A stretch of DNA of 44,335 nucleotides from the NCBI GenBank assembly GCA_026988245.1, contig JALSLR010000072.1, positions 1-44,335 on the forward strand, given 5' to 3'. The position numbers and the translations under genes are program-made. Below are positions 1,608 to 42,248 of this stretch, piece after piece. This DNA comes from Sulfurimonas sp. Its GTDB lineage: Bacteria > Campylobacterota > Campylobacteria > Campylobacterales > Sulfurimonadaceae. Position 1 is the first letter of the stretch, and each line of letters opens with the position of its first letter. The notes below the pieces were generated by a model, which was given only the letters and a program-made list of their open reading frames with translations, searched no databases and was not told the DNA's origin.

Positions 1608-3556
1608 TGATAGATACCACTTAATCTGAGTAAATTATCTGGATTTGCCTCACGTCCCATAAGTTGAACAAAAAATTCACTCATACTTCTGGAACCTCCA
1701 CCTTTTAAGATTATATTTAAATAGTTCTTTGCTGTTTTTGAATAAAATATGCCTTCATCCATAACGCTGTAAAACGCATCTGCACTTAAAACTTCAGCCC
1801 ATTTATAGGAGTAATAACCAGCAGCATATCCACCTGCAAAGATGTGTGCAAAACCATTTTGAAATTTGTTGTAAGATGGTGTTTTTATAAGTGCAGTATC
1901 TTTTCTGATTTCATTGAGTAAGTCTTGAACTTCATCACCTTGGATTAAAGTAGAATGTAGCTTAAAGTCAAATAGAGAAAACTCTAACTGTCTTAGCATC
2001 CCTGATGCAGATAAAAAGTTTTTTGCCTTAACTAATTTTTGGCACATATCATCAGAGATAATTTCTTTATTTTTGTAGTGAGTTGCAAACATTTTCAGAA
2101 TCTCTGGTTCATAAGCAAAATTTTCTAAAAATTGAGAAGGAAATTCAACTGCATCCCACTCAACTCCATTTACGCCACTTACTTCACTCTCATTTACTTC
2201 AGAGAGTAGATGATGAATAGCATGTCCCATCTCATGAAAGAGTGTAACTACATCATCATGTCGTAATAGGGAAGGTGTTTTCTCATCTGAAGCTGGAAAG
2301 TTACATACTACAAATGCTGACGCTAAGACTTCAGCACCATTTTCATCTTTATGATGTGTTTGGTAATTATGCATCCACGCACCACCCCGTTTAGATTTTC
2401 TTACTTCAAGGTCTAAGTATAATCGTGCACGTAGTTTGTTATTTACATATAAATCATAAGCTGTCGCTTTAGCATCCCATAGTTGTTCGTTTATCTCTTT
2501 GAAGGTAATTCCAAAAAGTTTATGTAAAAAATTAAACATCCCATTTACGACACTTATTTTTTCAAAATATGGACGATATAACTCTTCATCTAAATCATAC
2601 TTTTTCTTTTTAAGTATTTCACTATAATACCCAGTATCAAAGCTTTGAAGTTTTTTTTCTGAAAGTTCTTGAACCTCTTTAAGTTCTTCTTTAGCTTGAT
2701 GTTTTGAGTTTATTACGAGTTTATTTAAAAATGAAAGTACACTAGAAGTGTCTTGTGCCATTTTTGATGCTAAGGAATACTCAGCATAGGAGCTAAAACC
2801 TAAGAGCTTTGCCATTTCATCTTTTAGTTTTAGTATCTCATCTATTATTTGAGCGTTTTGTGGTGCACGTGTTGTATAAGCTTTGTATAATTCTTCTCTT
2901 ATTTTAGAATTTGCTCCATAAGTCATATAGGCTATATACGAGGGCATTTGTAATGTAAACTTATATTTTGTAACTCCATCTTCTTCAAAACTTGCTGCGT
3001 CTATATCACTTTGGGGGAGACCCTCTAAGTCAGACTCATCTGTTATGACTTTTTCATAAGCATTTGTAGCATCAAGTAAGTTTTGTGAAAACTCATTTGA
3101 TAGTTCACTTTTTTTGATGTTTATCTCACCAAGTCTCTCTTTAGTCTTAGCATCAAGATGGGCACCACTTAATTCAAAACCTTGTATATTTAATTCTAAT
3201 ACACGAAGTTGTTCGTAGTTTAATGTGTCTTTTTCATTTTTGAGTATCTCTTTATAGGCATTATACATATTTAAGTTTTGAGATAAATTTGTTGAATACT
3301 CTGTTATGATTGGAAGAGATTCTGTATATACTTTTTGAGTTTCATCTGAGTTGTTTACAGCATTAAGGTGTGAAAGCGGAGTGAAAAAGAGTTCGAGTTT
3401 ATCATCAAGCATTTGTAGCTTTTTTACAAATGAAGCATAGCTCTTATTTTTTTGTTTTAGTAGGTTATCTATTTGCTTATTATTATGTTCTAGTATGGTA
3501 TTGAGATTATCTATGAAGTTTTCTAAATCACATTCAAATTTTACAAATTGGTTCAT
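1604..3556 (-). CDS. prlC: M3 family oligopeptidase (oligopeptidase A type)
   Basis: A 650-residue zinc metallopeptidase of family M3. The catalytic motif HEMGHAIHH (HExxH) follows VVTLF in the C-terminal half. The N-terminal segment FTPLSHLNAVNNS resembles oligopeptidase A rather than PepF. There is no signal peptide, so it should be cytoplasmic, degrading short peptides released by other proteases or by signal-peptide processing. The C-terminal region has the usual Tyr/Gly-rich helix (AHIFAGGYAAGYYSYKW) that lines the substrate channel. Three copies of the GATGCTAAG 9-mer lie in this gene (1992, 2766, 3146). It is followed by the EEP gene with a 4-bp overlap. The family is certain; the subgroup symbol is less so. 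Confidence 0.85.
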   Translation of the reverse strand: MNQFVKFECDLENFIDNLNTILEHNNKQIDNLLKQKNKSYASFVKKLQMLDDKLELFFTPLSHLNAVNNSDETQKVYTESLPIITEYSTNLSQNLNMYNAYKEILKNEKDTLNYEQLRVLELNIQGFELSGAHLDAKTKERLGEINIKKSELSNEFSQNLLDATNAYEKVITDESDLEGLPQSDIDAASFEEDGVTKYKFTLQMPSYIAYMTYGANSKIREELYKAYTTRAPQNAQIIDEILKLKDEMAKLLGFSSYAEYSLASKMAQDTSSVLSFLNKLVINSKHQAKEELKEVQELSEKKLQSFDTGYYSEILKKKKYDLDEELYRPYFEKISVVNGMFNFLHKLFGITFKEINEQLWDAKATAYDLYVNNKLRARLYLDLEVRKSKRGGAWMHNYQTHHKDENGAEVLASAFVVCNFPASDEKTPSLLRHDDVVTLFHEMGHAIHHLLSEVNESEVSGVNGVEWDAVEFPSQFLENFAYEPEILKMFATHYKNKEIISDDMCQKLVKAKNFLSASGMLRQLEFSLFDFKLHSTLIQGDEVQDLLNEIRKDTALIKTPSYNKFQNGFAHIFAGGYAAGYYSYKWAEVLSADAFYSVMDEGIFYSKTAKNYLNIILKGGGSRSMSEFFVQLMGREANPDNLLRLSGIYH

Positions 3557-3590
3557 CTATTAATATCCTTTAGTTAAAAGGATATTATAT

Positions 3591-5225
3591 CTAAGAGTTT
3601 AAAAGAATAATTAATATAATGTTCATTATAAACATAAGTATAAAACCAGTTTTATAAAATGTTAAAGGGGAACGTTCAATGAGTGATGAACTTTTCGAAA
3701 AAAATGGTTTTACTTTTTCTGGTTTAGAGAGTTCAAAATGCATCTCTGAGTAATGCTGGTAACGTAATGTTTTATCTGCAACTATAGAACGCATTATGAC
3801 ACTGTCTAACCAGTCTGGTATATTTTTATTATAGGTGCTAGGTTTCTTGACCTCTTTAAAAGAAGGGTTTTGAAAAGGCTCTATCTCTCCGTAGGGATAT
3901 CTTTTACTTAAAGCTAAGTAGAGTGTAACCCCTATAGAAAATATTTCACTACTTTCACTTATAGCTTCATTTAAAAATCTTTCAGGTGATAAAAATGAGG
4001 GAGTACCAGCTTTTGTATCAGTAGAAAATATTTCCGTAATGCTTCCAAAATCAATAATTTTAAAACTAACTTTATCTTCATCGCTTGTTACCATAATATT
4101 TTGAGGTTTTATATCGCCATGGACTAAATCATATTTTAAGAGATGTTGTTCCATATTGAGTAAGGTTTTAGCAAGGTCAACAGCATCATCGATGCTAAGA
4201 TTTTTATGAGAAAGGTAGGAGTCTAAATCCTCTCCATCAATAAGTCTCATTACATAGTAACGGTGGGTACGATTTTTTGGTATTACTGCTTTTGCAAAAT
4301 AAGGAGATTTAAGTCGTTTTGCATTCCACGCTTCTTTTACAAATAAGTCAAGAACTATTTCACTTTCTAAGGCTTCTGTTGGTGCAAATTTAATAACATA
4401 TTGTTTTGTTTTTTTAGAACATAACCAAGTTCTATCATTTTGGATAAGTGATTTTTCTAGTAAATAACCATCTATTATATCACCGATTTTTAAACTTTTT
4501 TGAATTGTCAACTTCTGTTGTTTGAGTGTTTGGATTTCATTTGCTTCTAGAATTTCTACAATGACAGCTGTTGTATCATCTGGTAAGTTGTCATCCATCA
4601 ATTTACTAGCTTTTTTTATGAGTGAACTAGCACCTAGGGAAAGAGATTGTTGTATTATGTCTTCAGCCATGATTGTGTATAGCCCATCACTACATAAAAG
4701 AATTTTATCATTCTTTTGAATGATATTTTCAAAGTAGTAAAGTTCTACTTCATTTTCAATACCTATAGCCTGTGTCAAAACACCCTCATAACCAATTTCA
4801 TCCATTGCATGATCATGTGAGAGTTGTTCAAACATATTGTTGCGTTGTAAGTAGACACGAGAGTCACCTACATTTGCCCCATAGAGTTTATTCCCCTCTA
4901 TAATCACTATAGTAAGTGTAGTAACTATCTCACTTCTTTCATAATTAACCTGTGATTCTTGGTAAAGGATAGAATTTATAGAGTTAATAAAAGTCTTAAT
5001 AGATTTTTCAATACTCCAAGTCTTTGGACGTGATTTAAGATTGTTCATAAGATATGTAGTAACTCTTTTAGCAGCGATTGCACCTTCTTCAGCACTTCCT
5101 ACACCATCACATACTATAGCTACAGTTAAGCTACCTATTGTTTTAGTGTCGTAAAAGTCATCACCAGTTAAGTTCTGACCTTTTGCAAGGGAGAAACCAG
5201 ATGTTTTAATATTTTTTGTTGGCAT
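3591..5225 (-). CDS. Bifunctional PP2C phosphatase / Ser-Thr protein kinase with C-terminal anchor
   Basis: One 544-residue chain carries two opposing activities. Residues 1 to about 230 are a PP2C-type phosphatase with the metal-binding motifs CDGVGSAEEG, GDSR and SDG. Residues from about 250 to 505 are a Hanks-type kinase: the lysine in YVIKF, the catalytic loop HGDIKPQN near residue 366, DFG and GTPSFLSPE. All key catalytic residues appear intact. The last 20 or so residues are hydrophobic, giving a tail anchor that holds both domains at the inner face of the membrane. It stands alone, followed by the peptidase gene after a 34-bp gap. Substrates are unknown. Such fusions occur in several proteobacteria, sometimes beside nitrogen assimilation genes, but no such link is visible here. 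Confidence 0.9.
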   Translation of the reverse strand: MPTKNIKTSGFSLAKGQNLTGDDFYDTKTIGSLTVAIVCDGVGSAEEGAIAAKRVTTYLMNNLKSRPKTWSIEKSIKTFINSINSILYQESQVNYERSEIVTTLTIVIIEGNKLYGANVGDSRVYLQRNNMFEQLSHDHAMDEIGYEGVLTQAIGIENEVELYYFENIIQKNDKILLCSDGLYTIMAEDIIQQSLSLGASSLIKKASKLMDDNLPDDTTAVIVEILEANEIQTLKQQKLTIQKSLKIGDIIDGYLLEKSLIQNDRTWLCSKKTKQYVIKFAPTEALESEIVLDLFVKEAWNAKRLKSPYFAKAVIPKNRTHRYYVMRLIDGEDLDSYLSHKNLSIDDAVDLAKTLLNMEQHLLKYDLVHGDIKPQNIMVTSDEDKVSFKIIDFGSITEIFSTDTKAGTPSFLSPERFLNEAISESSEIFSIGVTLYLALSKRYPYGEIEPFQNPSFKEVKKPSTYNKNIPDWLDSVIMRSIVADKTLRYQHYSEMHFELSKPEKVKPFFSKSSSLIERSPLTFYKTGFILMFIMNIILIILLNS

Positions 5226-5318: not shown

Positions 5319-6515
5319 ATGGAAAATGAAATTGATGTAATTATAAAATCGGGATATGAAAAAGAGTATAGTGATGGTTATCCATTAGTTTCTAAAGAAT
5401 CTATAGTAGATGTATCAGGTATTGATGAAGAAGGTTTAGTGCTAAATCTCTATGATGCTAAGAAAAAATTTATAGTAAAAGCATATCATGGAAATCAAAA
5501 CAAAGGTTTTGGTTGGATCTTAAGTACAGATAAAGAAGAACAGATAGATAAAGATTTTTTTAAACAAAAGATAGTTGCGGCTATAGAGTACAGAAAAGAG
5601 TATTATGATGCTACGGATACAACCGCCTTTAGAGTTTTTAATGGTGAGGGTGATGGAGTAGGGGGGTTGACGATAGACTACTTTGATGGTTATTATCTTT
5701 TAACTTGGTATAGCCTTGGAATCTATGAGTTTAGAGAGTATATTTTAGAGGCTCTTAAGGATGTAATAGAGTGTAAAGGTATATATCAGAAAAAACGTTT
5801 TGATGCTAAGGGGAAATACCTTGATGCTAAGGATGATTTTCTTTTCGGTGTAAAAGCACCTGAGCCATTGATAGTCAAAGAAAATGGTGTTAAGTTTGCA
5901 ATATACTTGGATGATGGTGCTATGGTGGGAGTTTTTTTAGATCAAAGAGACGTAAGAAAAAATATAAGAGATACGTATGCAAAAGGTAAAACAGTTTTAA
6001 ATACCTTTTCTTATACAGGTGCCTTTTCTCTTTTTGCAATGATGGGTGATGCTAAGAAAACTACAAGTGTAGATTTAGCAAAAAGAAGTTTACCTAAAAC
6101 AAGTGAGATGTTTGAGATAAATAGTATTGATGCTACGACACAAGAGATAGTAGTGGAAGATGTCTTTAAATACTTTAAGTATGCGGTAAGAAAAAAGTTA
6201 CTTTTTGATATTGTAGTTCTTGATCCACCTAGTTTTGCAAGAAGTAAAAAACATACTTTTTCAGCTACAAAAGATTATAAGAATTTGCTCAAAGAGGCTA
6301 TTTTGATAACTACTAAGGGTGGGATTATAGTAGCCTCTACTAATGCTTCAAATGTTTCAATGATGCGTTTTCGAGAGTTCATAAAAAAAGCATTTCAAGA
6401 GCTCAATGTAAGGTTTGAAGTTTTAGAGAGTTATTCTTTACCAAAAGATTTTAAAGTTAATCCAAGCTATAAAGAGGGTGATTATTTAAAAGTTGTTTTT
6501 ATAAAAAAACTATAG
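5319..6515 (+). CDS. rlmI: RlmI-type 23S rRNA cytosine-C5 methyltransferase
   Basis: A 398-residue class I SAM-dependent methyltransferase of the COG1092 family, which methylates a cytosine of 23S rRNA (C1962 in E. coli). An N-terminal PUA-like RNA-binding region (about 1-75) precedes the hallmark GVFLDQRDVR (about 204-213), the SAM-binding LNTFSYTGAFS (about 227-237) and VLDPPSF (about 300), which supplies the catalytic region. The start is the only ATG that keeps the PUA domain, although the -10 box is just 5 nt upstream. Four GATGCTAAG 9-mers are in this gene, all read as Asp-Ala-Lys; the pair at 5802 and 5823 is only 21 bp apart. Its 3' end converges with the LuxR-type gene after 3 bp. 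Confidence 0.88.
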   Translation: MENEIDVIIKSGYEKEYSDGYPLVSKESIVDVSGIDEEGLVLNLYDAKKKFIVKAYHGNQNKGFGWILSTDKEEQIDKDFFKQKIVAAIEYRKEYYDATDTTAFRVFNGEGDGVGGLTIDYFDGYYLLTWYSLGIYEFREYILEALKDVIECKGIYQKKRFDAKGKYLDAKDDFLFGVKAPEPLIVKENGVKFAIYLDDGAMVGVFLDQRDVRKNIRDTYAKGKTVLNTFSYTGAFSLFAMMGDAKKTTSVDLAKRSLPKTSEMFEINSIDATTQEIVVEDVFKYFKYAVRKKLLFDIVVLDPPSFARSKKHTFSATKDYKNLLKEAILITTKGGIIVASTNASNVSMMRFREFIKKAFQELNVRFEVLESYSLPKDFKVNPSYKEGDYLKVVFIKKL

Positions 6516-7128: not shown

Positions 7129-8463
7129 TTATCTCTCCGAAAATACGTATTGTTTTGATTTAAGTATAGGTTTTAAAATGTATTGCATTACAGTTTTTTT
7201 CCCAGTCACTAGATCAACACTCACTGTCATACCTGGTATTATTTTAAGTGGATGCTCTTCGCTCCCAAGATAATTTTTATTTGTTTCAATATAGATGAGA
7301 TAAAAAGTATTTTCTTGTTTATCTGTAATAGTATCAGGTGAAATATTTACCACTTTACCTACTAAACCACCGTGAATAGCAAAATCATAAGCTGAGACCT
7401 TTACCTTAGCTTCAGCACCAGGATGAATAAAGGCTATATCGCTTGGTTTTATTTTTACTTCGAGATAAAGTTTTTCACTTGTTGGAACAATCTCAACTAA
7501 GTCAGCTCCAGGTTGCACTACTCCACCGATAGTATTTACATGGAGTTTTTGAATAATACCGTCCACTGGAGATTTTACTACAGTACGAGATACTTGATCA
7601 CTAAAAGCAACTTGTTGCGTTTGAAGCCTTGATATTTCAGCAGTAACCTCATTCAATTCCTTCTTAGCATCATTTAAAAATGCTTGTTTTGACTCTTTAC
7701 GCTTGTTTCTATATTCTGATATTGCTGAAGCTAAACGAGGAAGTGAAAGTTGAGCAGCTTCTATATCATTTTCAATAGTATTTGCTTCTCTTTTTAATTT
7801 TAAAAAATCTACTTTAGACTTTATTCCTTCACGAACCATTGGAGCTGTCATTGCAATCTCTTGGGTTACGTATTCTAGAGATTTTTTAAGTGAACGAATT
7901 CTAGCTATTGCTTCTCTGTATTCTTGTTTTTTTTGCTCTATCTGTTGGATAATAGTATTGTCTTTTGCTTTAAACTCTTGTATATCTGAGTCGTAAAGAT
8001 CTTTTGCTAGTTGCATTTGTTTGCTTGCAGTCTCGTCAATTATCAAGAGTTTATCATTTGCTTCGGCGTAGAGTCTATTTCTTTTGGCTTCGAGTTCTTC
8101 AAATTTCATTTGGTTAGTTTGGGAACTTGATAATGATTTTGCATTATTAATTTTAAGGATAGTTTGCCCTTGTTTTATCTCTTCACCTTCATGCACTAAA
8201 ATGGCACTTATGATACCTCCCTCAAGATTTTGAATAATTTTGTTTTGTCCATAAGGAATGACATCACCATTACCTCTTGTGATTTCATCTATCTCGGCTA
8301 AACTTGCCCAGATTAAGAATAAAGTGATAGTAATGAGCCAAATTTTTAAAACTCGACTAATTCTTGAAGGAGTTTGCTCAAGTATAGCTGAACTCAAAGA
8401 GTTCATAAATTCATAATCTTTTTTATTAAATTCTAATGGTGTAGTATTATTTTTTTTGCTCAA
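7129..8463 (-). CDS. Type I secretion periplasmic adaptor (HlyD/LapC family)
   Basis: A 444-residue membrane fusion protein. A single transmembrane helix near residues 40-60 (LKIWLITITLFLIWASLAEI) is followed by the lipoyl half-motif GNGDVIPYGQNKIIQNLEGG, a long coiled-coil hairpin (about 110-290), the second lipoyl half (VVKSPVDGIIQKLHVNTIGG) and a beta-barrel with LVEIVPTSEKLYLEVKI. It bridges the inner-membrane ABC exporter and the TolC-type outer-membrane channel. It overlaps the ABC exporter gene by 17 bp, indicating tight co-expression. The architecture matches adaptors of the LapBCE class that export large surface adhesins. Confidence 0.9.
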   Translation of the reverse strand: MSKKNNTTPLEFNKKDYEFMNSLSSAILEQTPSRISRVLKIWLITITLFLIWASLAEIDEITRGNGDVIPYGQNKIIQNLEGGIISAILVHEGEEIKQGQTILKINNAKSLSSSQTNQMKFEELEAKRNRLYAEANDKLLIIDETASKQMQLAKDLYDSDIQEFKAKDNTIIQQIEQKKQEYREAIARIRSLKKSLEYVTQEIAMTAPMVREGIKSKVDFLKLKREANTIENDIEAAQLSLPRLASAISEYRNKRKESKQAFLNDAKKELNEVTAEISRLQTQQVAFSDQVSRTVVKSPVDGIIQKLHVNTIGGVVQPGADLVEIVPTSEKLYLEVKIKPSDIAFIHPGAEAKVKVSAYDFAIHGGLVGKVVNISPDTITDKQENTFYLIYIETNKNYLGSEEHPLKIIPGMTVSVDLVTGKKTVMQYILKPILKSKQYVFSER

Positions 8464-10621: not shown

Positions 10622-10646
10622 ATAGATTCCTTTTTATTATCTCTAG

Positions 10647-12611: not shown

Positions 12612-12628
12612 ATTTATTCCCTTTTTCA

Positions 12629-13390: not shown

Positions 13391-13488
13391 ATTTAATTCC
13401 CTAATTTAAATTATTTAAGAAAAGTATAACTAAGACTAGTGAGTTATTAGTGAGTTATAGACTTAATTGTATAAAGAAAGCTTTATGT

Positions 13489-13494
13489 TATAAT
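13489..13494 (+). promoter_or_regulatory. -10 box for mutS7
   Basis: TATAAT, 32 bp before the MutS7 start, in the divergent spacer with the secretion operon. Confidence 0.55.
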
Positions 13495-13526
13495 CTCATC
13501 AATTAAATAAGTGGAAATTTGTATAT

Positions 13527-16500
13527 ATGAAATCATCAGATGTAAAAGCTATATTAGACTCTAAAGAGAAACTTTTAACCCAGATTTATTTTGATTTACA
13601 GAGATATTTTGAAAAAAAATATGGAAAAGATACTATCGTGTTTATGGAAATAGGCACTTTTTTTGAAGTATATGAAGTAAATAATGATGATGAACAGATT
13701 GGTAAAGCTAAAGAGATAGCTGAACTTTTAAATATTCAACTCACTAAAAAAAATAAAAGTATAGTTGAAAACTCAGATAAAAACCCACTTTTAGCGGGAG
13801 TTCCTGCCGTTAGTTTTGATAGATACTTAAATCGTGTTATCCAAGAACAAAAATATACAGTCATCGTCGTAAAACAAAGCAAAGCTACTTTAGAAAAAGG
13901 AAATCCGCCTAAAATAAGTCGTTATATCTCTCAAATTGTTTCCCCTGGAACAAATTTTGAACATATAGTTGACAATGATGATAATTACATAGTTTCACTA
14001 TTGGTCGATAAACATAAAAACATATTTACTGTTGGTTATAGTGCCATCGATGTGACTACTGGGAAAACTTGGCTTTATGAATCTCATGGAACAAGTGAAG
14101 ACCCATCTTATGCCCTAGATGAAGTTTTTAACCTCTTAAATGTTTATAGAACGAGTGAAGTGGTTGTTACTTTTTTAGATGGAATAGAAGATCAACGTCA
14201 TCTGATGCAATACTTAGAGATAGCAGAACATTATCACTATAGTGTCAACAATGATAGACCACGCATAGATTTTCAAAATGAGTTGTTTTCTGAGGTGTAT
14301 CAAATACGCTCCCTTCTTTCTCCAATAGAGCATTTAGATTTAGAGAGAAGCCCTATGATAACAGAATCTTTGGCAACTTTAATCAACTTTGTTATAGAAC
14401 ATGATTATCATATAGTACAAAAACTCTCTATGCCTTCGCTTATTGATAATCGTCGTTTTATGTATTTAGGAAATAATGCATTAGAACAGATGGGAATAAT
14501 ATCCAAAGATAAAAAAGAGTTCACCCTTTTAAAAATGTTAGATAAAAGCTCCACAGCCATTGGAAGACGTTTGTTAAAAGAGAGGTTGTTAAACCCTATA
14601 ATGGAAACCCAAGAACTTGAGCGTCGTTACAACCTTATAGATAGAGTCTCTTCTCACATCCGTATACTAGATGAAACTATGCGTGGTATTTATGATTTAC
14701 AAAGACTCTCTCGGCGTTTAAGACTAGCTAGATTACACCCTTTTGAGATGAACCATATATATGATTCTGTTCTTAGCATCAAAGAGTTGATGTTGTATGT
14801 TAAAAAACATAAAATTCAAAAAACTCCTTTTTCAGAATTTGAGATAGATGAATTTTTAAGAGATATAAGAAAAAGTATAGATTTAGATGTATCTCGTCGT
14901 TTTACTAACAGTACAATAGATGAAAATTTTTTAATGGGTGGAGTGGATGAAGCCATAGATACTTTGGTAAAAGAAAACTCTGTGATGTTAATAGTTTTTG
15001 AAGATATCATGAAAAAAATTGAGGACTTACTTAAAGAAAATAATGCAGGAAGTTCTAGTAAACTAGTCACTTTAGGATTATTAGAAAAAGAGGGTTATTA
15101 CATATCATTGAGTAAAAATAGATACTCAATGATTGAAAGTCGATTTAAAAAAGAGGAAGATTTTAAAGACTTTATAGTAAAAAAATTGACAAATAATGTA
15201 AAAATAACCTCAGAATTTACAGATAATCTCTCGGATAAGATTATGAAAAATCGTAGAAAAATTATAGCACTAGTAAAAGAAAGATATATTTCTTTACAGA
15301 GTGTATACGAAAGACGATATACCCTTTTATTTGATAGGGTTATAAACTATGTAGCTGACTTAGATGTAGGGGTAAGCTCTTCAAAAGTAGCACAAACTTA
15401 CAACCATTGCCGACCTATGATAACAGAAGTAAAAGATGATGATAATTTTATGCAACTGATGCAACTTCGTCATCCTCTTATAGAGCTACAAGAAAGTAGT
15501 GGTCTATATGTTCCAAATGACATAGTTATGGGTAACCGTGAGTATATGGATTTGCCACATCCAACGACAGTGATGCTAAATGTTAGTGTTCATGATGGAC
15601 ATGATGTAAATGGTGTTTTGCTTTATGGAATAAACTCAAGTGGTAAATCATCTTTAATGAAGAGTATAGGTATAGCAGTCCTTATGGCACAGTCTGGCTT
15701 TTTTGTTTCCGCCTCCGTTATGAAGTTTTCTCTTTATGACTCACTTTTTACTAGAATAGTCTCAAAAGACAATCTAGCAAAAGGCTTGTCAACTTTTGCC
15801 GTAGAGATGTTAGAGATGAAAAATATTTTCAATCGTGCAACTCTACGCTCTTTAGTTTTAGGCGATGAAATAAGTCATGGAACAGAGACCCTCTCTGGTG
15901 TATCTATAGTAGCATCTGCCATCATTAAGCTTGCAAAGCTTCGTTCCCTTTTTTTGTTTGCAACGCATCTACATCAACTCTCAACTATGAAAGAGATTAC
16001 GAGTCTCGATAATGTAGTAGATTTGCACCTTAGTGTAGAATATGATGAAGAGAAAGATACTTTGATATTTAACAGAGTCTTACAAGAGGGAAGTGGTAGT
16101 AGCATCTATGGACTGGAATTTGCAAAGTCACTCCATATGGATTCGGAGTTCTTAGATACTGCAAACAAAATTCGTAAACGCCTAGCAAAAGATTTTGATG
16201 AGTTAGAACTTCTTGTGAAGAAAAAAACTTCTAAGTACAATAAAGAATTATACGTGACTAAGTGTGTTATTTGTGGTGCTATGGCAGAAGATGTTCACCA
16301 TATAACGAACCAAAGTTTAGCTAATTCAGCTGGTTTCATAGACCACTATCATAAAGATTCAAAACATAATCTAGTACCATTGTGTAAAGAGCATCACAAT
16401 GAGATACATGAAGGTAAAATAAGAGTGGATGGGTTTGTGATGACCTCCAATGGACTAGAACTAAAATATGAAGAGCTAATAAGTAAGCCACAAGAGAAAA

Positions 16501-16574: not shown

Positions 16575-16619
16575 TTAAAAATTAATCACTAATTAGTATT
16601 GAGTGCCTTCATTAAGAAG

Positions 16620-16625
16620 TATAAT
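16620..16625 (+). promoter_or_regulatory. -10 box for first amt gene
   Basis: TATAAT 28 bp before the Amt start, followed by an AAGGAT ribosome-binding site about 7 nt before the ATG. No sigma-54 type GG/GC pair was recognised upstream. Confidence 0.55.
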
Positions 16626-16653
16626 TTTCCTAGATTAATTATAAGGATTATTA

Positions 16654-17955: not shown

Positions 17956-17961
17956 CCTTAA

Positions 17962-18357
<396 letters not shown>

Positions 18358-18365
18358 ACTTTTTT

Positions 18366-30862: not shown

Positions 30863-30999
30863 TAGATTCTGAATCAAGTTCAGAATGACGGAACTTTATC
30901 GTTATTTCAAATTTTATCGTCATTGAATCAAGTTCAGAATGACGGAACTTTATCGTTATTTCAAATTTTATCGTCATTCCAAACTTGATTTGGAATCTA
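30863..30999. repeat. Family-1 palindrome pair with 54-bp tandem duplication (lsrK-mtnK spacer)
   Basis: A reverse copy (30863-30890) and a forward copy (30972-30999) face each other. Between them a 54-bp unit is duplicated exactly (30871-30924 and 30925-30978), creating a third, partial palindrome at 30918-30944. The unit contains the inner half GAATCAAGTTCAGAATGACG plus TTATCGTTATTTCAAATTTT. Confidence 0.88.
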
Positions 31000-31007
31000 C
31001 ACAAAGG

Positions 31008-32240
31008 ATGAAAGTGCAATACAAAGAATTAGATGTCAATAGTGTTTTAGACTTTATAATAGATATACCAAGCATAAAAGAATACTTTGGTGATGCTAGC
31101 CTTAATGTCGCAGAGATTGGCGATGGGAACCTTAACTATGTCTACATAGTCCGTTCAGATGATGATGCTAACAAAGCCCTCATAGTTAAACAAGCCGTTG
31201 AGTATCTTCGGTGTGTAGGTGAAGAGTATGCCCTCTCACGAGAGCGTATGAGCTTTGAGATACGAGCTATGAAAAAAGCATATGCTATTTTGCCCAAGCA
31301 TATCCCAAAGATATATTATGAAAACGAAGATATGTCCTTAGTTATCATGGAGTTTTTAGGCAGACATGAGATTATGAGAAAAGGTTTGATAGAAAAAGAG
31401 CAATATCCAAACTTTACTGAGCATATATCTACTTACTTAAGTTTTTTTCTTTTTTATACCTCTTCTTTGTATTTGTCAAGTGATGCTAAGAGAAAACTAA
31501 TAGATGAATTTAATGCAAATACTGAATTGTGTAAGCTGAGTGAAGATTTTGTTTTTACCACAGCTTATATGGATGATGAGACAAACGATAATGAAAACAT
31601 AGTTAATAATGATGATGCTAAGAGACTTTTTAACGATATGGAGTTTAAAGCTAAAGTACTAGAGTTAAAATACAAGTTTATGACACAAACTGATGCACTT
31701 CTTCATGGGGATTTGCATACGGGTTCTATCATGCTCAACAAAGAGCAAACTTTTGTCATAGACCCAGAGTTTGCCTTTGTAGGGCCTTTTGGTTTTGACA
31801 TCGGAGCACTCATTGCAAACTTGGTAAATAACTACATCCATCACAGTATAGTTACGCATGATGCTAAGCAACAAGCCTATCTTCTAACTACCATACAAGA
31901 GGTTCTTAAAAAATTTGAACGTAAGTTTTTAGACCTTTGGACGCAACATACAAGTTCAGCATTGATAGCGGATGGTTTTTTAGATGCAAGGTATTTAGAT
32001 ATCTATAAAAAGAAATTTATTTTAAATATATTGAGAGAGAGTATAGGCTTTGCAGGGGCTAAGATGGCACGACGCGTGTATGGTGTCGCAGGAGTTGAGG
32101 AGATTCGAGGTATAGATGATATGATGCTAAGACACAAAGCTGAGAAAATGGCGCTAAGCATCGCAAGAGAGTTTGTGATGCATTATGAAAATATTAAAAC
32201 TATAGATGAGGTTTTGGAGATGATACAAAGTGAACGGTAA
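31008..32240 (+). CDS. mtnK: S-methyl-5-thioribose kinase MtnK
   Basis: A 410-residue kinase of the choline-kinase/APH-like fold. It phosphorylates 5-methylthioribose, and in related pathways 5-deoxyribose, on C1. Visible motifs are AEIGDGNLNYVYIV (phosphate loop region), LIVKQAVEYLR with the ATP-binding lysine, the Brenner motif HGDLHTGSIM near residue 232, and DPEFAFVGPFGFDIG near 251. A longer frame from 30939 begins inside the family-1 repeats and encodes repeat-derived residues (FYRHSKLDLEST), so it is not used. ATG 31008 directly abuts an AAAGG, making GTG 31014 a rival with better spacing. The next gene, mtnA, overlaps by 11 bp. Confidence 0.88.
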   Translation: MKVQYKELDVNSVLDFIIDIPSIKEYFGDASLNVAEIGDGNLNYVYIVRSDDDANKALIVKQAVEYLRCVGEEYALSRERMSFEIRAMKKAYAILPKHIPKIYYENEDMSLVIMEFLGRHEIMRKGLIEKEQYPNFTEHISTYLSFFLFYTSSLYLSSDAKRKLIDEFNANTELCKLSEDFVFTTAYMDDETNDNENIVNNDDAKRLFNDMEFKAKVLELKYKFMTQTDALLHGDLHTGSIMLNKEQTFVIDPEFAFVGPFGFDIGALIANLVNNYIHHSIVTHDAKQQAYLLTTIQEVLKKFERKFLDLWTQHTSSALIADGFLDARYLDIYKKKFILNILRESIGFAGAKMARRVYGVAGVEEIRGIDDMMLRHKAEKMALSIAREFVMHYENIKTIDEVLEMIQSER

Positions 32241-33297
32241 ATACAAAGCCCTATGGCTCAACGAAGAGAACTACTTAGAAGTGATAGACCAGCAAAAACT
32301 CCCTTTTGAGTATGTGTCAAAGGTTTTAAAAACGACTGATGAGGTTGTTGAGGCTATAAAAGATATGACAGTTCGTGGTGCTGGAGTTATAGGAAGTGTA
32401 GCTGCCTTTGGGATATATACAGCATGTTTAGAAGTGAAAAACTATGAAGAGTTAAAACAAAAAGCTTCGCTTATTCGCAAATCACGCCCAACAGCAGTAA
32501 ACCTGATGTGGGCAGTTGATAGTATGATGCTAAGACTAAAAAACTCTACAAACCTAGCAGATGATGCTAAGAAGTTTGCTATAGAACTTAACGATGCTGA
32601 GGCAAAAGAGAGTCAAAAAATAGCCTCATATGGTGCTGATATCATTGAAGATATTATGACGAAGAAAAATAAAAAAACTATAAATATTTTAACGCATTGT
32701 AATGCTGGTTGGCTTGCGGTAATAGATGAGGGGACAGCATTAGCCCCCATCTATGAAGCACAAAGACGTGGCATAGATGTCCATGTCTGGGTAGATGAAA
32801 CAAGACCAAGAAACCAAGGTGCGAGTTTGACTGCGTGGGAACTTACTCAAAGCAAAGTAAAACATACCATCATAGCTGACAACACAGGTGGACACTTAAT
32901 GCAAATAGGCGATGTAGATATGGTTATCGTTGGGGCGGACAGAGTAAGTGCTAATGGTGATGTAGCTAACAAGATAGGCACATATCTCAAAGCCTTAGCA
33001 TCATATGATAACAAGGTGCCTTTTTATGTAGCTATCCCTGAGTCAACATTTGACTTTGATATAAAAGATGGAATGAAAGATATTCCCATAGAACTAAGAA
33101 GTGAAGACGAAGTGAAGTATATGCGTGGGGTAGATGCAGATGGAGTTCTAAGAGAAGTATTAGTAACTCCAAAAGATTCTCCCGCGATTAACTATGGTTT
33201 TGATGTCACTCCTGCACGGCTTGTAACGGGGTTGATAACAAATAAAGGGGTTTGTAAAGCAGACTTCGAAGAGATAAAACAAAAGTTTATGCTATAA
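32230..33297 (+). CDS. mtnA: S-methyl-5-thioribose-1-phosphate isomerase MtnA
   Basis: A 355-residue member of the eIF2B-related isomerase family. It converts methylthioribose-1-phosphate to methylthioribulose-1-phosphate, downstream of MtnK. The catalytic cysteine is in ILTHCNAGW (near residue 156) and the catalytic aspartate in GADRVSANGDVANKIGTY (near 236). The signature MTVRGAGVIG near the N terminus binds the phosphate. It starts with GTG, overlapping mtnK by 11 bp, so the pair is translationally coupled. Three GATGCTAAG 9-mers lie within it. The stop codon overlaps a TATAAT box for the downstream region. Confidence 0.94.
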   Translation: MNGKYKALWLNEENYLEVIDQQKLPFEYVSKVLKTTDEVVEAIKDMTVRGAGVIGSVAAFGIYTACLEVKNYEELKQKASLIRKSRPTAVNLMWAVDSMMLRLKNSTNLADDAKKFAIELNDAEAKESQKIASYGADIIEDIMTKKNKKTINILTHCNAGWLAVIDEGTALAPIYEAQRRGIDVHVWVDETRPRNQGASLTAWELTQSKVKHTIIADNTGGHLMQIGDVDMVIVGADRVSANGDVANKIGTYLKALASYDNKVPFYVAIPESTFDFDIKDGMKDIPIELRSEDEVKYMRGVDADGVLREVLVTPKDSPAINYGFDVTPARLVTGLITNKGVCKADFEEIKQKFML

Positions 33298-33512: not shown

Positions 33513-35546
33513 ATGAAAAGTTTATGGAATGAAAACGAAGCAAAAAAATACAAAACAGATTTAGATTTACGGGTATATACATCAAGACTTTTAGGGCAAG
33601 ATAGCTCACTTGTTCTTCATGGTGGGGGTAATACTTCTGTAAAATCAACTGCGACTAATCTTTTTGGTGAGAGTGAAGATATACTTTATGTTAAAGGAAG
33701 CGGTTGGGATTTGGCGACCATAGAGGCTGAGGGTTTTGCTCCTGTTAAGATGGAGATGCTTTTAAAAATGGCTGAGTTAAAAGAATTAAACGACCCAGAT
33801 ATGGTGAAGTACCAACGACTTGCTATGACAAATCCATCTGCACCAAACCCCTCTGTTGAAGCTATACTTCATGCTATCATCCCTTTTAAGTTTGTAGACC
33901 ATACTCATACTGATGCAGTTGTTACCATTACAAATACTGAGGGTGGAGAAGATAAGATAAAAGAGTTGTATGGTGATAAAGTGCTTATCATCCCCTACAT
34001 CATGCCAGGTTTTGTTCTTGCTAAACTTATCTACGATATGACACGTGATGTTGAGTGGTCACAACTTGAAGGTATGGTTCTTATGAATCATGGTCTTTTT
34101 ACATTTGCCGATGATGCTAAGAAGTCTTATGAGAAGACTATAGAGTTAGTGGATAAGGCTGAGAGGTATTTAGCAGATAATGGAGCTGAGTATGCATTCC
34201 CAAGCGATAGCTTGGGAACGAGCGGGGATGGTGTGTCTAATCACACCGTACCTGACACATCTCGTCATTCCGTGCTTGACACGGAATCTACACACCTACT
34301 AAACCTAGCAAAAATAAGACGTGAAATCTCAACACTCAAAGGGCACGCAACTATCTCAATTTTGAACGATTCACCCTTAGCATCATACTTCTCTTCGCAA
34401 GATATACAAAAAATTTCACAACAAGGTCCACTCACCCCAGACCATGTGATACGTACAAAAAGAATACCTGCAATCCTTGGCGATGATGCTAAGGCGGACT
34501 TAGCATCATATATGCTTGAGTATGAAAAATATTTTCAAGAAAACAAAACAGGTGAAACGCTTTTAAACCCAGCCCCAAACTTTGCAATACTTAAAAGTGG
34601 AGGTGCACTTTCTTTTGGAAAGAACGCAAAAGAAGCTAACATCATAAAAGATATAAACGAGCATACTTTTGAAGCGATTTTAAAAGCTGAAAAACTGGGT
34701 GGCTATAAGGCACTTGAAGCAGACAAGATTTTTGAAGTAGAGTACTGGTCACTTGAACAAGCAAAACTGAAAAAAAGTGGTAATGCACCGGAGTTTAATG
34801 GTAAGGTAGCCTTGGTTACTGGTGGGGCTAGCGGCATTGGTAAGGCTATAGCTGAGATGCTTAACGCTCGTGGTTGTGCAGTTGTGGTTTTAGATATTAA
34901 TCCAGAGGTTGAAAACATTTTCAATACTCATGATGCTAAGGGTATAAAATGTGATTTAACTTCAAGTGAAGATATCCAAAATGCTGTTACATTTGCAGTA
35001 GAGAATTTTGGTGGTATAGATATAGTCGTATCAAACGCGGGTATCTTTACTCCAAGTGAAAATTTAGAAGATCTAAGTGATGATAATTGGGATAAAAGTA
35101 TAAGTATAAACCTCACATCTCATCAAAAACTCATCAAATACACAACACCATTTTTAAAGCTTGGTGTTGATGCTTGCATAGTGATGGTAGCATCGAAAAA
35201 CTTTCCAGCACCAGGAAAAGGTGCAGCTGCATACTCTGTTGCAAAGGCAGGACAGACACAACTCGCTCGCATCGCAGCGCTGGAACTTGGAGAATACGGG
35301 GTACGCGTAAACACACTACATCCTCATGCAGTATTTGATACAGCTATATGGACTGATGAAGTCTTAGCCTCTCGCGCAAAAGCATATGGTATGAGTGTAG
35401 CGGAGTATAAAACAAATAATGTACTAAAAACAGAGATAAAATCAAGCGATATTGCAGAGCTTGTATGTGCCATGGCAGGGAAACCTTTTGCAAAAACAAC
35501 AGGTTCTCAGGTCGCAATAGATGGTGGAAGCGATAGAATTATATAA
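33513..35546 (+). CDS. Class II aldolase / short-chain dehydrogenase fusion
   Basis: A 677-residue two-domain protein. Residues 1-225 are a class II aldolase/adducin domain: LHGGGNTS near 34, zinc ligands in DHTHTDA near 130, and MNHGLFT near 191. Residues from about 427 are an SDR: TGGASGIG near 434, SNAGIF, and YSVAK near 573. The aldolase would split a ketose-1-phosphate into DHAP and an aldehyde, and the SDR would reduce or oxidise the aldehyde. After mtnK-mtnA the natural substrate is methylthioribulose- or deoxyribulose-1-phosphate; rhamnulose-1-phosphate is the family alternative. Two palindromic repeats (34191-34290) add about 34 residues between the domains, in frame. Five GATGCTAAG 9-mers occur, two as an inverted pair. 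AAGGAA precedes the start. Confidence 0.88.
   Translation: MKSLWNENEAKKYKTDLDLRVYTSRLLGQDSSLVLHGGGNTSVKSTATNLFGESEDILYVKGSGWDLATIEAEGFAPVKMEMLLKMAELKELNDPDMVKYQRLAMTNPSAPNPSVEAILHAIIPFKFVDHTHTDAVVTITNTEGGEDKIKELYGDKVLIIPYIMPGFVLAKLIYDMTRDVEWSQLEGMVLMNHGLFTFADDAKKSYEKTIELVDKAERYLADNGAEYAFPSDSLGTSGDGVSNHTVPDTSRHSVLDTESTHLLNLAKIRREISTLKGHATISILNDSPLASYFSSQDIQKISQQGPLTPDHVIRTKRIPAILGDDAKADLASYMLEYEKYFQENKTGETLLNPAPNFAILKSGGALSFGKNAKEANIIKDINEHTFEAILKAEKLGGYKALEADKIFEVEYWSLEQAKLKKSGNAPEFNGKVALVTGGASGIGKAIAEMLNARGCAVVVLDINPEVENIFNTHDAKGIKCDLTSSEDIQNAVTFAVENFGGIDIVVSNAGIFTPSENLEDLSDDNWDKSISINLTSHQKLIKYTTPFLKLGVDACIVMVASKNFPAPGKGAAAYSVAKAGQTQLARIAALELGEYGVRVNTLHPHAVFDTAIWTDEVLASRAKAYGMSVAEYKTNNVLKTEIKSSDIAELVCAMAGKPFAKTTGSQVAIDGGSDRII
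34191..34290. repeat. Family-2 and family-1 palindromes inserted in the aldolase gene
   Basis: A reverse family-2 copy (34191-34222; stem CCCAAGC/GCTTGGG) is followed by a small hairpin (GGTGTG/CACACC, 34230-34247) and a forward family-1 copy (34263-34290; stem TTCCGTG/CACGGAA). The reading frame stays open and encodes AFPSDSLGTS and RHSVLDTEST in the protein. Confidence 0.88.
34485..34507. repeat. Inverted pair of GATGCTAAG 9-mers
   Basis: GATGCTAAG (34485-34493), five bases, then its reverse complement CTTAGCATC (34499-34507). This makes a perfect 9-bp stem with a 5-nt loop inside the aldolase reading frame (DAKADLAS). Confidence 0.85.
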
Positions 35547-39129: not shown

Positions 39130-41392
39130 AGAAACTAAACTCACACTTGTTTACATCAGCATTGCTTTTTTATTTTCAGTATCTATGCGTCTTATTTGGA
39201 TTTATCAATTTGGTGGGTATGAACCATTTATGTTTAATGGGCAGTTTATGATAAACACTAATGATGGGTACTTTTGGGCTGAGGGTGCTAGAGATTTGCT
39301 TAGTGGCTCTAGTACTAATCCGTCGGCTGAGAATTTTTATGATACATTTCATCAATTACATGACTTATCTCCAGTATCAAGTGCAGCTTCTCAACTTACC
39401 GCTTTCTTTGCGTACATATTGCCATTTAGTTTTGAATCGGTCATTTTATATATGCCTATATTTTTAGGTTCATTAGTAGTCGTCCCCATCATCTTAATCG
39501 CTAAAAACTTAAAAAACTTAGAGATGGGACTCATAGCTGCACTCTTAGCATCGATAGCTTGGAGTTACTACAACCGTACCATGGTAGGCTACTATGACAC
39601 TGACATGCTCAATATTGTCATCCCAACTTTTTTACTTTGGTCTATCATCTGGGCGATGACTACGAACCAAAACAGATATCTACTCATCACCGCTTTGGAT
39701 ATCTTAGTCTATCGTTGGTGGTATCCTCAATCTTATGCTTTGGAATTTTCGTTCTTTGGATTAATCTTACTTTATACCCTCATATACGATAGAAAAAATA
39801 TCTATAACTATAAACTCCTTAGCATCATGATGTTTGCAATGTTAAATATAGATGGATATATTCGATTTCCACTAGTCTTAGGGATATTTTATATCTTTAG
39901 ACAAGAGAAGTTTGACAAATACATTTATTATATTTTTGGTGTATCAGTGCTTGCTTTTTTTATGAGTGGTGGTTTTAATCCTATATGGTCACAATTAAAA
40001 GGTTATGTATTTACAGATGCTATAAGTCAAGCCGAAAAAGGGATGCAACTTCATTTTTACTCTGTGATGCAAACAGTCCGAGAAGCTGGAAAAATCCCCT
40101 TTGAAACCTTTGCAAATCGTATAAGCGGACATACTGTAACTTTTTTACTCTCTGTCATTGGGTATGCTTGGCTTTCCTATAAACATCGCATCATGCTTTT
40201 TGCATTGCCTCTTGTTGGACTTGGGTTTTTAGCCTGGTTTGGTGGACTTCGCTTTACTATCTACGCTGTGCCACCTTTAGCTTTAGGAATGGCTTTTTTG
40301 ATAGTAGAGGTGAGTAGATTCCCAGTCAAGCTGAGAATGACGGGTAAGTCAAAACATGAAATGACGGGTAAGTCAAAACATGAAATGACGGGTAAGTCAA
40401 AGCATAACATCACGGGTAAGTCGACCTTTTCGTCATCCTTGGGCTTGACCCGAGGATCTATACTTATACTATTAACATCAGCAATACTAGCTCCAAATAT
40501 TCAACATATCATAGAGTATAAAGTACCAACAGTCTTCACAAAAGATGAAGTAAAAGTTCTTGACAACTTAGGCAAAATCACCTCAAGAGAGGACTATGTA
40601 GTCTCGTGGTGGGATTATGGTTACCCTATTCGTTACTACGCTGATGTCAAAACTCTTGTAGATGGTGGAAAACATGGAGGAAGCGTAAACTTTCCAGTGA
40701 GTTATATACTAACAAATTCTCAAGATGAAGCAGCAAGGATGGCACGACTTGATGTGGAGTATACGGAGAAGACTTTTACGTTTAGAGATGAAAATAAACA
40801 GCTCATCATAGATAAAAATCTTACAATATTTTCCAACATAGAACAGATGACAAAAGAGTATGGATACGATGATACAAATGACTTTTTACTCTCACTAGAT
40901 ACAGATATAAAACTTCCTAAAAAAACAAGAGATATCTACTTGTTTCTTCCTTTTAGAATGCTAAACATCTACCCAACAGTCAAGGTGTTTTCAAATTTAG
41001 ACTTAATGAGTGGTCAAAAATATAACAGACCACTGTTTTATATCTCTACAAACTATAAACAGATTAAAAATATATTGCATCTAGGTAACGGTGTCTCTTT
41101 AGACTTAAACACAAAAATATTAAGCTTGGGTGATAAAAAAACAATGATAAGAAGGTTTGTGACTACAGTATATGATAAAAAAATGCGCTTAAAAAAGAAA
41201 GTTGATTTGGTAGATTTTAGCTCAAATATAAGCGTGATTTATATGAAAAACTATAACACTTTTTTAATCCTTGATGAGGCTACATATAACTCAACATACA
41301 TACAACTGATGGTCTTAGAAGAGTATGATGCTAAGCTTTTTGAACCAGTAGAGTTAACCCCACATGCTAAAGTGTATAAACTTAAGATATAA
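39116..41392 (+). CDS. pglB: STT3/PglB oligosaccharyltransferase
   Basis: A 758-residue membrane enzyme that transfers a lipid-linked glycan to Asn in periplasmic proteins. About 13 transmembrane helices (1-470) carry the catalytic acidic residues in INTNDGYFWAEG and YYDTDMLN. The periplasmic C-terminal domain has the family motif WWDYGYP near residue 497, which recognises the +2 Ser/Thr of the sequon. Between the last two helices the protein carries an insert encoded by 40315-40460: two opposed family-1 palindromes with a tandem MTGKSKHE repeat, a loop predicted to lie on the cytoplasmic side and rich in Lys, so it obeys the positive-inside rule. Native PglB lacks this. The gene overlaps the preceding glycosyltransferase by 14 bp. 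Confidence 0.93.
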   Translation: MNLTKETKLTLVYISIAFLFSVSMRLIWIYQFGGYEPFMFNGQFMINTNDGYFWAEGARDLLSGSSTNPSAENFYDTFHQLHDLSPVSSAASQLTAFFAYILPFSFESVILYMPIFLGSLVVVPIILIAKNLKNLEMGLIAALLASIAWSYYNRTMVGYYDTDMLNIVIPTFLLWSIIWAMTTNQNRYLLITALDILVYRWWYPQSYALEFSFFGLILLYTLIYDRKNIYNYKLLSIMMFAMLNIDGYIRFPLVLGIFYIFRQEKFDKYIYYIFGVSVLAFFMSGGFNPIWSQLKGYVFTDAISQAEKGMQLHFYSVMQTVREAGKIPFETFANRISGHTVTFLLSVIGYAWLSYKHRIMLFALPLVGLGFLAWFGGLRFTIYAVPPLALGMAFLIVEVSRFPVKLRMTGKSKHEMTGKSKHEMTGKSKHNITGKSTFSSSLGLTRGSILILLTSAILAPNIQHIIEYKVPTVFTKDEVKVLDNLGKITSREDYVVSWWDYGYPIRYYADVKTLVDGGKHGGSVNFPVSYILTNSQDEAARMARLDVEYTEKTFTFRDENKQLIIDKNLTIFSNIEQMTKEYGYDDTNDFLLSLDTDIKLPKKTRDIYLFLPFRMLNIYPTVKVFSNLDLMSGQKYNRPLFYISTNYKQIKNILHLGNGVSLDLNTKILSLGDKKTMIRRFVTTVYDKKMRLKKKVDLVDFSSNISVIYMKNYNTFLILDEATYNSTYIQLMVLEEYDAKLFEPVELTPHAKVYKLKI
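40315..40460. repeat. Family-1 pair with 24-bp tandem array in pglB
   Basis: Reverse copy 40315-40343 (stem ATTCCCAG/CTGAGAAT) and forward copy 40431-40460 (ATCCTTGGG/CCCGAGGAT) face each other. Between them, units of ATGACGGGTAAGTCAAAACA plus TGAA (24 bp) repeat at 40337, 40361, 40385 and partly at 40409. The 24-bp unit is eight codons, MTGKSKHE, and frame is kept. Confidence 0.92.
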
Positions 41393-41393
41393 G

Positions 41394-42248
41394 ATGAAAA
41401 TATACCTCATTCTCTTACTTAGCATCTCTCTTTTTGCAGGCAAACCAGACCTGTTTTTACTAAAAGTTTATAATAATGATGTAGATATTGCAGGGTGGTA
41501 TATGAGTGAAAAACTTGATGGTGTACGGGCTTACTGGGATGGAAAACAGCTTATATCAAGAAACGGACATAAGTTTGATGTGCCTAGTTTTTTTACGAAA
41601 GATTTTCCTAGACACGAGTTAGATGGTGAGTTGTGGAGCAAGAGAGGAAGTTTTGATAGTATTAGTTCTATTGCTAGAACAAAAATATTAGATCCTCAGA
41701 TCAAGCCTAAGGATGACGTACTATCTGTCATTCCAAACTCCGATTTGGAATCTCCTTGGATACAACTTACATACAACATCTTTGAAGTCCCAAACGCAAA
41801 AGGCAACTTACTTCAAAGACTCTCGATTGTAAAACCAACAAAATACCTAAAAGTGATACCGCAAATAAAGATAAAAAATAAAAAAGATTTATTTAACTAC
41901 CAAAAAATTATAGAAGCTAAAGGTGGGGAGGGTGTAGTTGTTCGTGATGGAGAACTTCCATACTTCACGGGAAGAACGAAAAATGCACTGAAAGTAAAAA
42001 GTTATTTGGACGCAGAATGTAAAGTAGTAGGACACAACAAAGGTAAAGGTAAGTACAAAAATAAACTAGGTTCATTGGCGTGTAAACTAAAAAGTGGTAA
42101 AATCGTAAAAATAGGTTCAGGTTTTGATGATGCAAAGAGAAATAATCCACCGAAGATAGGCTCTGTCATCACTTTTAAATACTATGGACTCACTTCAAAA
42201 GGAAATCCTAGGTTTCCAGTATATCTAAGGAAAAGAAGCATAAAATGA
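41394..42248 (+). CDS. Secreted ATP-dependent DNA ligase (LigE type)
   Basis: A 284-residue minimal ATP-dependent DNA ligase. The nucleotidyl-lysine motif is SEKLDGVRAYWDG (KLDGVR, Lys near residue 39). ELDGELW, GGEGVVVRDG and LKVKSYLDAECKVVGH match later ligase motifs. A signal peptide (KIYLILLLSISLFAG) is present with the start at 41394; an upstream ATG at 41364 would place extra residues before it and is rejected. LigE enzymes are periplasmic and have been associated with natural competence. Two opposed family-1 palindromes (41689-41754) insert about 25 residues (KILDPQIKPKDDVLSVIPNS) between the adenylation-domain motifs, in frame. Starts 1 bp after pglB and overlaps pgi by 4 bp. Confidence 0.92.
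   Translation: MKIYLILLLSISLFAGKPDLFLLKVYNNDVDIAGWYMSEKLDGVRAYWDGKQLISRNGHKFDVPSFFTKDFPRHELDGELWSKRGSFDSISSIARTKILDPQIKPKDDVLSVIPNSDLESPWIQLTYNIFEVPNAKGNLLQRLSIVKPTKYLKVIPQIKIKNKKDLFNYQKIIEAKGGEGVVVRDGELPYFTGRTKNALKVKSYLDAECKVVGHNKGKGKYKNKLGSLACKLKSGKIVKIGSGFDDAKRNNPPKIGSVITFKYYGLTSKGNPRFPVYLRKRSIK
41689..41754. repeat. Head-to-head family-1 pair in ligase gene
   Basis: Reverse copy 41689-41718 (TAGATCCTCAG and CTAAGGATGACG, partly decayed stem) and forward copy 41726-41754 (stem TTCCAAA/TTTGGAA), separated by only 7 bp. Confidence 0.87.

Follow-up and report, generated by a model that had tools for sequence, protein, structure and literature searches.

Why should a single contig of a Sulfurimonas genome carry the same nine-base word 30 times? 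The question is raised by a stretch of 44,335 nucleotides from Sulfurimonas sp. (GenBank assembly GCA_026988245.1, contig JALSLR010000072.1; the whole stretch is called the window here), in which the 9-mer GATGCTAAG occurs in 30 exact copies, 18 on the plus and 12 on the minus strand. In 100 dinucleotide shuffles of the window, the same word reached a mean of 0.48 and a maximum of 3 copies. A preliminary description of this DNA had proposed a DNA uptake sequence; its copy number, strand split and coordinates were the same when recounted, and its statement that the sites lie in unrelated genes was borne out, as the copies are spread over twelve genes of differing function. We consider it most likely that the word, in its 10-base form TGATGCTAAG, serves one Sulfurimonas species as a DNA uptake sequence for self-recognition, by which DNA carrying it would be favoured during uptake.

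The enrichment extends to the entire source genome (G000; 2,192,805 bases in 120 contigs, 94% complete, with the window as contig C72). It holds 1,028 copies of GATGCTAAG, 524 forward and 504 reverse or one per 2.1 kb, as compared to 8 copies of a reversed control word, and the 10-mer core TGATGCTAAG is present 911 times, counts that speak strongly for the interpretation given in the preliminary description. For modeling, we used a 341-kb sample of this genome comprising 19 stretches, the window included, which were taken from contigs known for copies or pilins and carry 5.5 copies per 10 kb as compared to 4.7 in the genome. The 186 copies in this sample exceeded the expectation of an order-3 Markov model 27-fold (6.8 expected) and that of an order-4 model 11-fold (16.2 expected), both expectations being themselves raised by the presence of the motif. 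The strictest null model shuffled synonymous codons only, so that all proteins and the overall codon usage stayed unchanged. Here, 181 copies in 313,527 coding bases stood against a mean of 14.5 (standard deviation 2.5, maximum 19 over ten shuffles), a 12.5-fold excess. The roughly 100-fold enrichment first estimated was thus too high, with the dinucleotide shuffles yielding about 60-fold and the other null models the lower values given above.

A near-miss profile of one-base variants revealed that the word is a 10-mer, TGATGCTAA followed by G, with the last place partly taken by A or C. Places 2-9 (GATGCTAA) are almost invariant; A is slightly over-represented at place 2 (8 vs 1.5 expected), and so are the non-consensus bases of place 9 (16 vs 4.9 expected). 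At place 1, T is strongly favoured and followed by C (14 vs 0.6 expected), and at place 10, G was counted 163 times, A 44 times (vs 5.8) and C 15 times (vs 1.9). One-mismatch 10-mers numbered 145 against 51.5 expected, the excess lying mainly at the last and first places, and two-mismatch 10-mers 580 against 507. In the window, the base preceding the 9-mer is T in 25 of 30 copies (0.86 bits), the second base preceding it is A in 16 of 30 (0.22 bits), and the base following the 10-mer is a purine in 25 of 30. Given these flanks and the near-miss profile, the 12-mer consensus of the preliminary description was overstated. According to these data, the specificity of the word is sharp; read directly, TGATGCTAAG is not a palindrome.

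The reading frames in which the copies occur locate the enrichment at the DNA rather than the protein level. It had been claimed that only the four frames free of stop codons are used, and this holds both in the window (Asp-Ala-Lys 16, x-Met-Leu-Arg/Ser 3, Leu-Ser-Ile 6, x-Leu-Ala-Ser 5) and in the 341-kb sample (102, 10, 32 and 39, in the same order), with no copy in the two stop frames of either. Relative to the means of the synonymous shuffles, the observed counts per frame were 100 to 11.9, 10 to 0.7, 32 to 0.3 and 39 to 1.6. Codon choice gave the same picture: the motif spells 100 of 141 Asp-Ala-Lys tripeptides as compared to 10.9 predicted from codon usage, 32 of 91 Leu-Ser-Ile (0.57 predicted), 39 of 92 Leu-Ala-Ser contexts (1.06) and 10 of 34 Met-Leu-Arg/Ser (0.55). 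Moreover, Asp-Ala-Lys itself is commoner in the source genome (141 in 104,509 codons) than in its relatives G317 (89 in 144,570) and G438 (11 in 27,353); the word thus appears to have dragged amino acids along. Frames, codon choice and synonymous shuffles thus agree with the earlier view that selection acts on DNA and not on a peptide. We compared the origin of copies at three sites in the GlnD gene. Codon alignments with 29 relatives are gap-free at all three, and the relatives have ordinary protein there, spelled with other bases. The near relative G438 also encodes LLSIE at the second of these sites, with 4 of 9 motif bases different. The three copies therefore arose by substitution, not insertion, and some of the substitutions creating them were silent.

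We next turn to the relatives. Among 398 genomes of the order, the source genome leads with its 1,028 copies of GATGCTAAG; the next four, with 146, 126, 123 and 120, likewise belong to Sulfurimonas. The 10-mer occurs at least once in 133 of 135 Sulfurimonas genomes and is enriched in the source genome only, the other 134 having 37 copies or fewer. In a k-mer comparison, G317 and others instead stood out by an excess of AGATGC with W and A after it. In whole-genome counts, AGATGCWAR reaches 281-667 per Mb in 15 of the 135 genus genomes and at most about 200 per Mb in the remainder, with 158 in the source genome (genome sizes rounded). Per kb, AGATGC was found 2.67 times in G317, as compared to pooled densities of 1.80 for six others and 0.94 for four control genomes. 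Within genes of G317, AGATGC was counted 1,229 times as compared to 432 (standard deviation 15.6) after synonymous shuffles, and all six frames were raised. For eight further AGATGC genomes (43-75 kb coding sequence each), the observed-to-shuffled ratios of AGATGCWA were 2.2-2.9, and for three control genomes 0.7, 1.3 and 1.7; the excess over controls is evident for G317 and modest for the small samples. The look at relatives that the preliminary description had advised thus yielded a related word in 15 genomes, backed by synonymous shuffles in the nine sampled. Both words contain GATGC, which is about three times as frequent as expected from base composition in five genomes profiled. We think it likely that the two words are dialects of one system and would share a common descent.

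Nine of the 15 AGATGC genomes are placed on a tree built from the 30 best GlnD matches (G238 and G482 had no GlnD match, and four others ranked lower or were broken). Six of the nine form one group with high support, two pair inside the wider group of the source genome, and one stands apart. Outside the genus, AGATGCWAR occurs 979 times in G026 and 925 times in G119 (family f7, genus g29) and 297-408 times in the other four genomes of genus g29; in a third family (f14), G155 is borderline with 437 copies in 1.8 Mb. As side observations from family f14, GATGCTAAG is mildly common in G155 (68 copies), G199 (51) and G236 (67), far under the source genome, and the reversed control word GAATCGTAG has 55 to 72 copies in G298, G328, G358 and G394 (genus g20), where it is perhaps another over-represented word. 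K-mer discovery in G247, G438, G453, G406 and G422 returned repeat-like words and no scattered motif matching the strength of that in the source genome. The AGATGC genome G482 carries a repeated element (L198-L201) with 12 copies of CTCTGCGTGG and 22 of TCCCACGC in 49 kb. In 46 viral stretches with two close word copies, the copies lie on one strand within each stretch, except for one opposite-strand pair in L312, and hence look like repeats in single genes.

How does the word compare with known systems? According to a 2025 paper (PMC12616744), selection of DNA by enriched words is known from two families only, Neisseriaceae and Pasteurellaceae. There, the DNA uptake sequence (DUS) of Neisseriaceae has the core CTG, eight dialects and the receptor ComP, and the uptake signal sequence (USS) of Pasteurellaceae, AAGTGCGGT plus a second type, has the fixed inner core GCGG. 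For the DUS, PMC3630211 describes thousands of copies and dialects. Being long and sharp, present on both strands, silent where possible and matched by a related word in relatives, the Sulfurimonas word resembles DUS and USS, and it appears to work like a word of this type. With the DUS, it shares a length of about ten bases, the lack of a palindrome and around a thousand copies or more, and probably also species dialects on a short core; it differs in being an unrelated word, in belonging to the phylum Campylobacterota and in that nearly all sampled copies are genic. Whereas Neisseria DUS are reported in transcription terminators, the Sulfurimonas motif has no preference for inverted pairs (9 inverted and 10 direct among 19 close neighbour copies in the sample). 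With the USS and its two types, it has in common a similar word length and the genome-wide enrichment, but word and phylum are again unrelated and inner near-miss copies are few here. The cores CTG and GCGG given in PMC12616744 are absent from TGATGCTAAG and its complement CTTAGCATCA. The earlier statement that no uptake sequence has been described in Campylobacterota stands with one exception: PMC12603785, citing earlier work, gives the name of DNA uptake sequence to the methylated RAATTY of Campylobacter jejuni and credits it with an effect on transformation. An enriched uptake word in this phylum was absent among the literature matches listed, and papers containing the nine letters of the word have, among those listed, unrelated titles. 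The Sulfurimonas word shares the phylum with this methylated six-base sequence and differs from it in having ten bases and in being defined by its number.

In the mechanism we propose, TGATGCTAAG in free DNA would be bound by a cell-surface receptor that is probably a minor pilin, and same-species DNA would enter through a pilus and ComEC and then recombine. Copies born by point mutation would spread via repeated transformation, and lost copies would be restored in the same way, because word-bearing DNA would be taken up preferentially. Related species would use a shorter dialect on the same GATGC core. We see a slightly better than even chance that a third system of genome-wide enriched uptake words evolved here independently, the first for Campylobacterota; in it, receptor-read GATGC dialects, found in Sulfurimonas and one more family, would change between related species and wall off gene exchange. 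If so, the habit of favouring self DNA by means of a tag enriched throughout the genome would have arisen at least three times, and such a tag would now extend to a second phylum and to free-living sulfur oxidisers. Relatives having either word or none would make the gain, change and loss of the tag directly testable, and the system would provide an independent case for what type of surface protein reads DNA sequence, as well as predict which Sulfurimonas species exchange genes.

The machinery for such an uptake is present in the form of ComEC and type IV pilin genes. ComEC was found in 35 of 36 genus genomes tested, including the source genome, the single miss being an 84% complete genome. 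The source genome has eight prepilin signatures above the Pfam cut-off. Its contig C4 carries a type II secretion operon (GspG above and GspD just below the NCBIfam cut-off), a pilin is located at the end of contig C44, a further set on C67 and an orphan pilin on C41. In relatives, two or three pilins, that of C44 among them, sit between flagellar genes and a priA-like gene (gene names by resemblance), and this locus lies about 13 kb or less from comEC in several relatives, for example G317, G365, G403 and G405, though not in G404. The orphan pilin (L014:134-817) adjoins genes that in our reading resemble citrate lyase subunits. Family profiles match its N-terminal signature only, and an FD-x-x-GRP stretch is kept in 27 aligned sequences; a GR stretch of this kind recalls FimT.

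Several observations weigh against an uptake sequence. The preliminary description had advised a search for a minor pilin that binds the motif, and the best-looking candidate, the orphan pilin, does not track it: full-length matches with E below 1e-36 occur in the source genome, in 12 of the 15 AGATGC genomes and in 14 of the 16 genomes at background level, or 27 of 32 irrespective of the motif. Motif-free genomes have ComEC and prepilin signatures just as often, and across the 32 genomes no pilin tracking the motif was found among the matches listed. G438 and G472, the nearest to the source genome on the GlnD tree, are enriched in neither word. Copies are clumped (5-kb bins, mean 2.75, variance 6.65) and few lie between genes. 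In the 341-kb sample, 183 of 186 are inside open reading frames (ORFs), one is partial and two are intergenic, though about 6% of the DNA is non-ORF (p 0.004), the ORFs of at least 100 residues that cover the other 94% coming from a greedy caller that overcalls. Inner one-base variants hardly exceed expectation, although an old word in decay would be expected to leave such variants behind. Finally, strand polarity, which had been named as a point to check, gave a divided answer. The near-even genome-wide split (524/504) speaks for an uptake sequence, and a mild excess on the leading strand of the source genome against it (103 leading vs 69 lagging, 60% leading, p 0.012; leading strand inferred per contig from skew at four-fold sites, a rough guide). 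Given gene orientation, the excess has a p of 0.054, and alternative tallies were 106:70 and, by the G-rich strand, 92:57. In G317 (24 sampled places), there is no polarity, with 630:602 for AGATGC and 265:235 with WA.

A further adverse point is the distribution within the window. As had been correctly noted, positions 7672-25985 hold one copy, as compared to 12.4 expected at the window rate (Poisson p ~6e-5). Among the matches listed, nearly all of this stretch matches relatives' DNA, in pieces; all ten relatives compared have matches, not every piece being present in each. On the matches listed, a fresh foreign island is thereby rejected, leaving 18 kb of conserved DNA with a single copy. 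A different kind of word-poor DNA is found in the closed genome G317, where a 20-kb stretch (L225, G317:C1:2360001-2380000) contains 0 AGATGCWA as compared to a mean of about 21 in 24 sampled stretches. Its G+C content is 42-54% in nine of ten 2-kb windows vs 33% in the genome sample, and its proteins carry M56 peptidase, regulator-propeller and Por-type secretion-tail domains, which appear Bacteroidota-like in our reading; a penicillinase-repressor-like gene is also present. An rRNA operon is ruled out, as an Rfam search finds no RNA, and a foreign island is likely from Pfam, PHROGs and composition. A word-free recent arrival is what a self tag predicts; composition alone would lower the count too.

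What other role could maintain such a word? It might be a highly iterated word acting as a nucleoid protein site, in repair or in chromosome organisation, kept by selection without transformation. HIP1 of cyanobacteria is a highly iterated word and a palindrome, and the Sulfurimonas word, likewise short and repeated very many times in genes, could be its counterpart: taken alone, the statistics demonstrate that DNA is under selection or drive, which is not yet uptake, and both the genic placement of the copies and the competence genes that do not track the motif would fit. We nevertheless consider such a role unlikely, as the Sulfurimonas word, unlike HIP1, is no palindrome, lies on both strands and is spread genome-wide, and as other species have a related word in its place, just as in known uptake words (PMC3630211). 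Somewhat less probable still is a methylation or restriction target, in which a methylated base in the GATGC/GCATC core would mark self DNA, a mode with a precedent in the same phylum in the RAATTY of C. jejuni (PMC12603785). The common five-base core has the usual length of a methylase site. However, a ten-base word with eight almost invariant places exceeds a plain asymmetric methylase site in length, restriction disfavours its sites, and methylation does not necessarily make them more numerous.

We give a marginally smaller chance to a Chi-like recombination hotspot, read by a nuclease of the RecBCD/AddAB type in double-strand break repair. Chi words are over-represented, asymmetric and mostly genic, as is the Sulfurimonas word, and single-strand reading would explain both the mild leading excess and the high genic share; yet known Chi words have 5-8 bases, the narrow range of one species in 135 does not fit, and the strand bias is weak in the source genome, where gene strand leaves it at p 0.054, and absent in G317. 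For a KOPS (FtsK-orienting polar sequence) or another segregation signal, abundance is the sole match, and strands that are near even or mildly skewed contrast with the strong polarity of such words, which makes this reading very improbable. Almost negligible is a coding artefact, be it a repeated peptide, a codon habit or a mobile repeat. Asp-Ala-Lys is indeed the largest class (102 of 183 genic copies), but four frames on both strands each show a 9- to 56-fold codon excess. Together with the synonymous shuffles and the gap-free orthologous sites in GlnD, frames and codon choice rule out a protein-level or mobile-repeat origin.

The window copies of the candidate uptake sequence are collected in Table 1. 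The gene at 1604-3556, previously labelled pepA-like, is an M3 peptidase by Pfam.

Table 1. Exact copies of GATGCTAAG in the window, with the genes that contain them (names marked with a dagger follow the preliminary description).
Copy	Strand	Gene	Gene position and strand	Remark
1992..2000	-	M3 peptidase	1604-3556 -	Pfam
2766..2774	+	M3 peptidase	1604-3556 -	
3146..3154	-	M3 peptidase	1604-3556 -	
4191..4199	+	PP2C + kinase domains	3591-5225 -	
5454..5462	+	PUA/methyltransferase (rlmI†)	5319-6515 +	
5802..5810	+	PUA/methyltransferase	5319-6515 +	
5823..5831	+	PUA/methyltransferase	5319-6515 +	21 bp beyond 5802 copy, same strand
6048..6056	+	PUA/methyltransferase	5319-6515 +	
7663..7671	-	HlyD-type	7129-8463 -	
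14772..14780	-	MutS	13527-16574 +	sole copy within 7672-25985
25986..25994	-	SIS/glutamine amidotransferase (GlmS-like)	24591-26405 -	
26545..26553	+	GlnD	26407-28929 -	
27007..27015	+	GlnD	26407-28929 -	G438 peptide LLSIE identical, 4/9 bases differ
27094..27102	-	GlnD	26407-28929 -	
31482..31490	+	kinase-like (mtnK†)	30939-32240 +	
31614..31622	+	kinase-like	30939-32240 +	
31860..31868	+	kinase-like	30939-32240 +	
32123..32131	+	kinase-like	30939-32240 +	
32526..32534	+	IF-2B family (mtnA†)	32230-33297 +	
32563..32571	+	IF-2B family	32230-33297 +	
32994..33002	-	IF-2B family	32230-33297 +	
34113..34121	+	aldolase/short-chain dehydrogenase	33513-35546 +	
34376..34384	-	aldolase/short-chain dehydrogenase	33513-35546 +	
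34485..34493	+	aldolase/short-chain dehydrogenase	33513-35546 +	arm 1 of inverted pair, 5-bp gap, intragenic
34499..34507	-	aldolase/short-chain dehydrogenase	33513-35546 +	arm 2 of inverted pair with 34485..34493
34932..34940	+	aldolase/short-chain dehydrogenase	33513-35546 +	
39544..39552	-	STT3/PglB	39116-41392 +	
39818..39826	-	STT3/PglB	39116-41392 +	
41327..41335	+	STT3/PglB	39116-41392 +	
41418..41426	-	DNA ligase	41364-42248 +	

Some minor features of the window may be added. The C-terminal stretch of the MutS encoded at 13527-16574 weakly resembles HNH nucleases, under the Pfam cut-offs, and in this the protein is like the MutS7 type. For ThiC (19718-21094), the best matches among those listed, past four Campylobacterota records, come from Bryobacteraceae and cyanobacteria, and the region is matched in most of the ten relatives compared. 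The adjoining intergenic segment 21100-21236 has many short matches across the relatives G472, G438 and G413, and the 12-mer GTCATTCTGAAC occurs in 8 window copies. Both look like small mobile or repetitive extragenic palindromic (REP)-like repeats, and they may be one and the same repeat.

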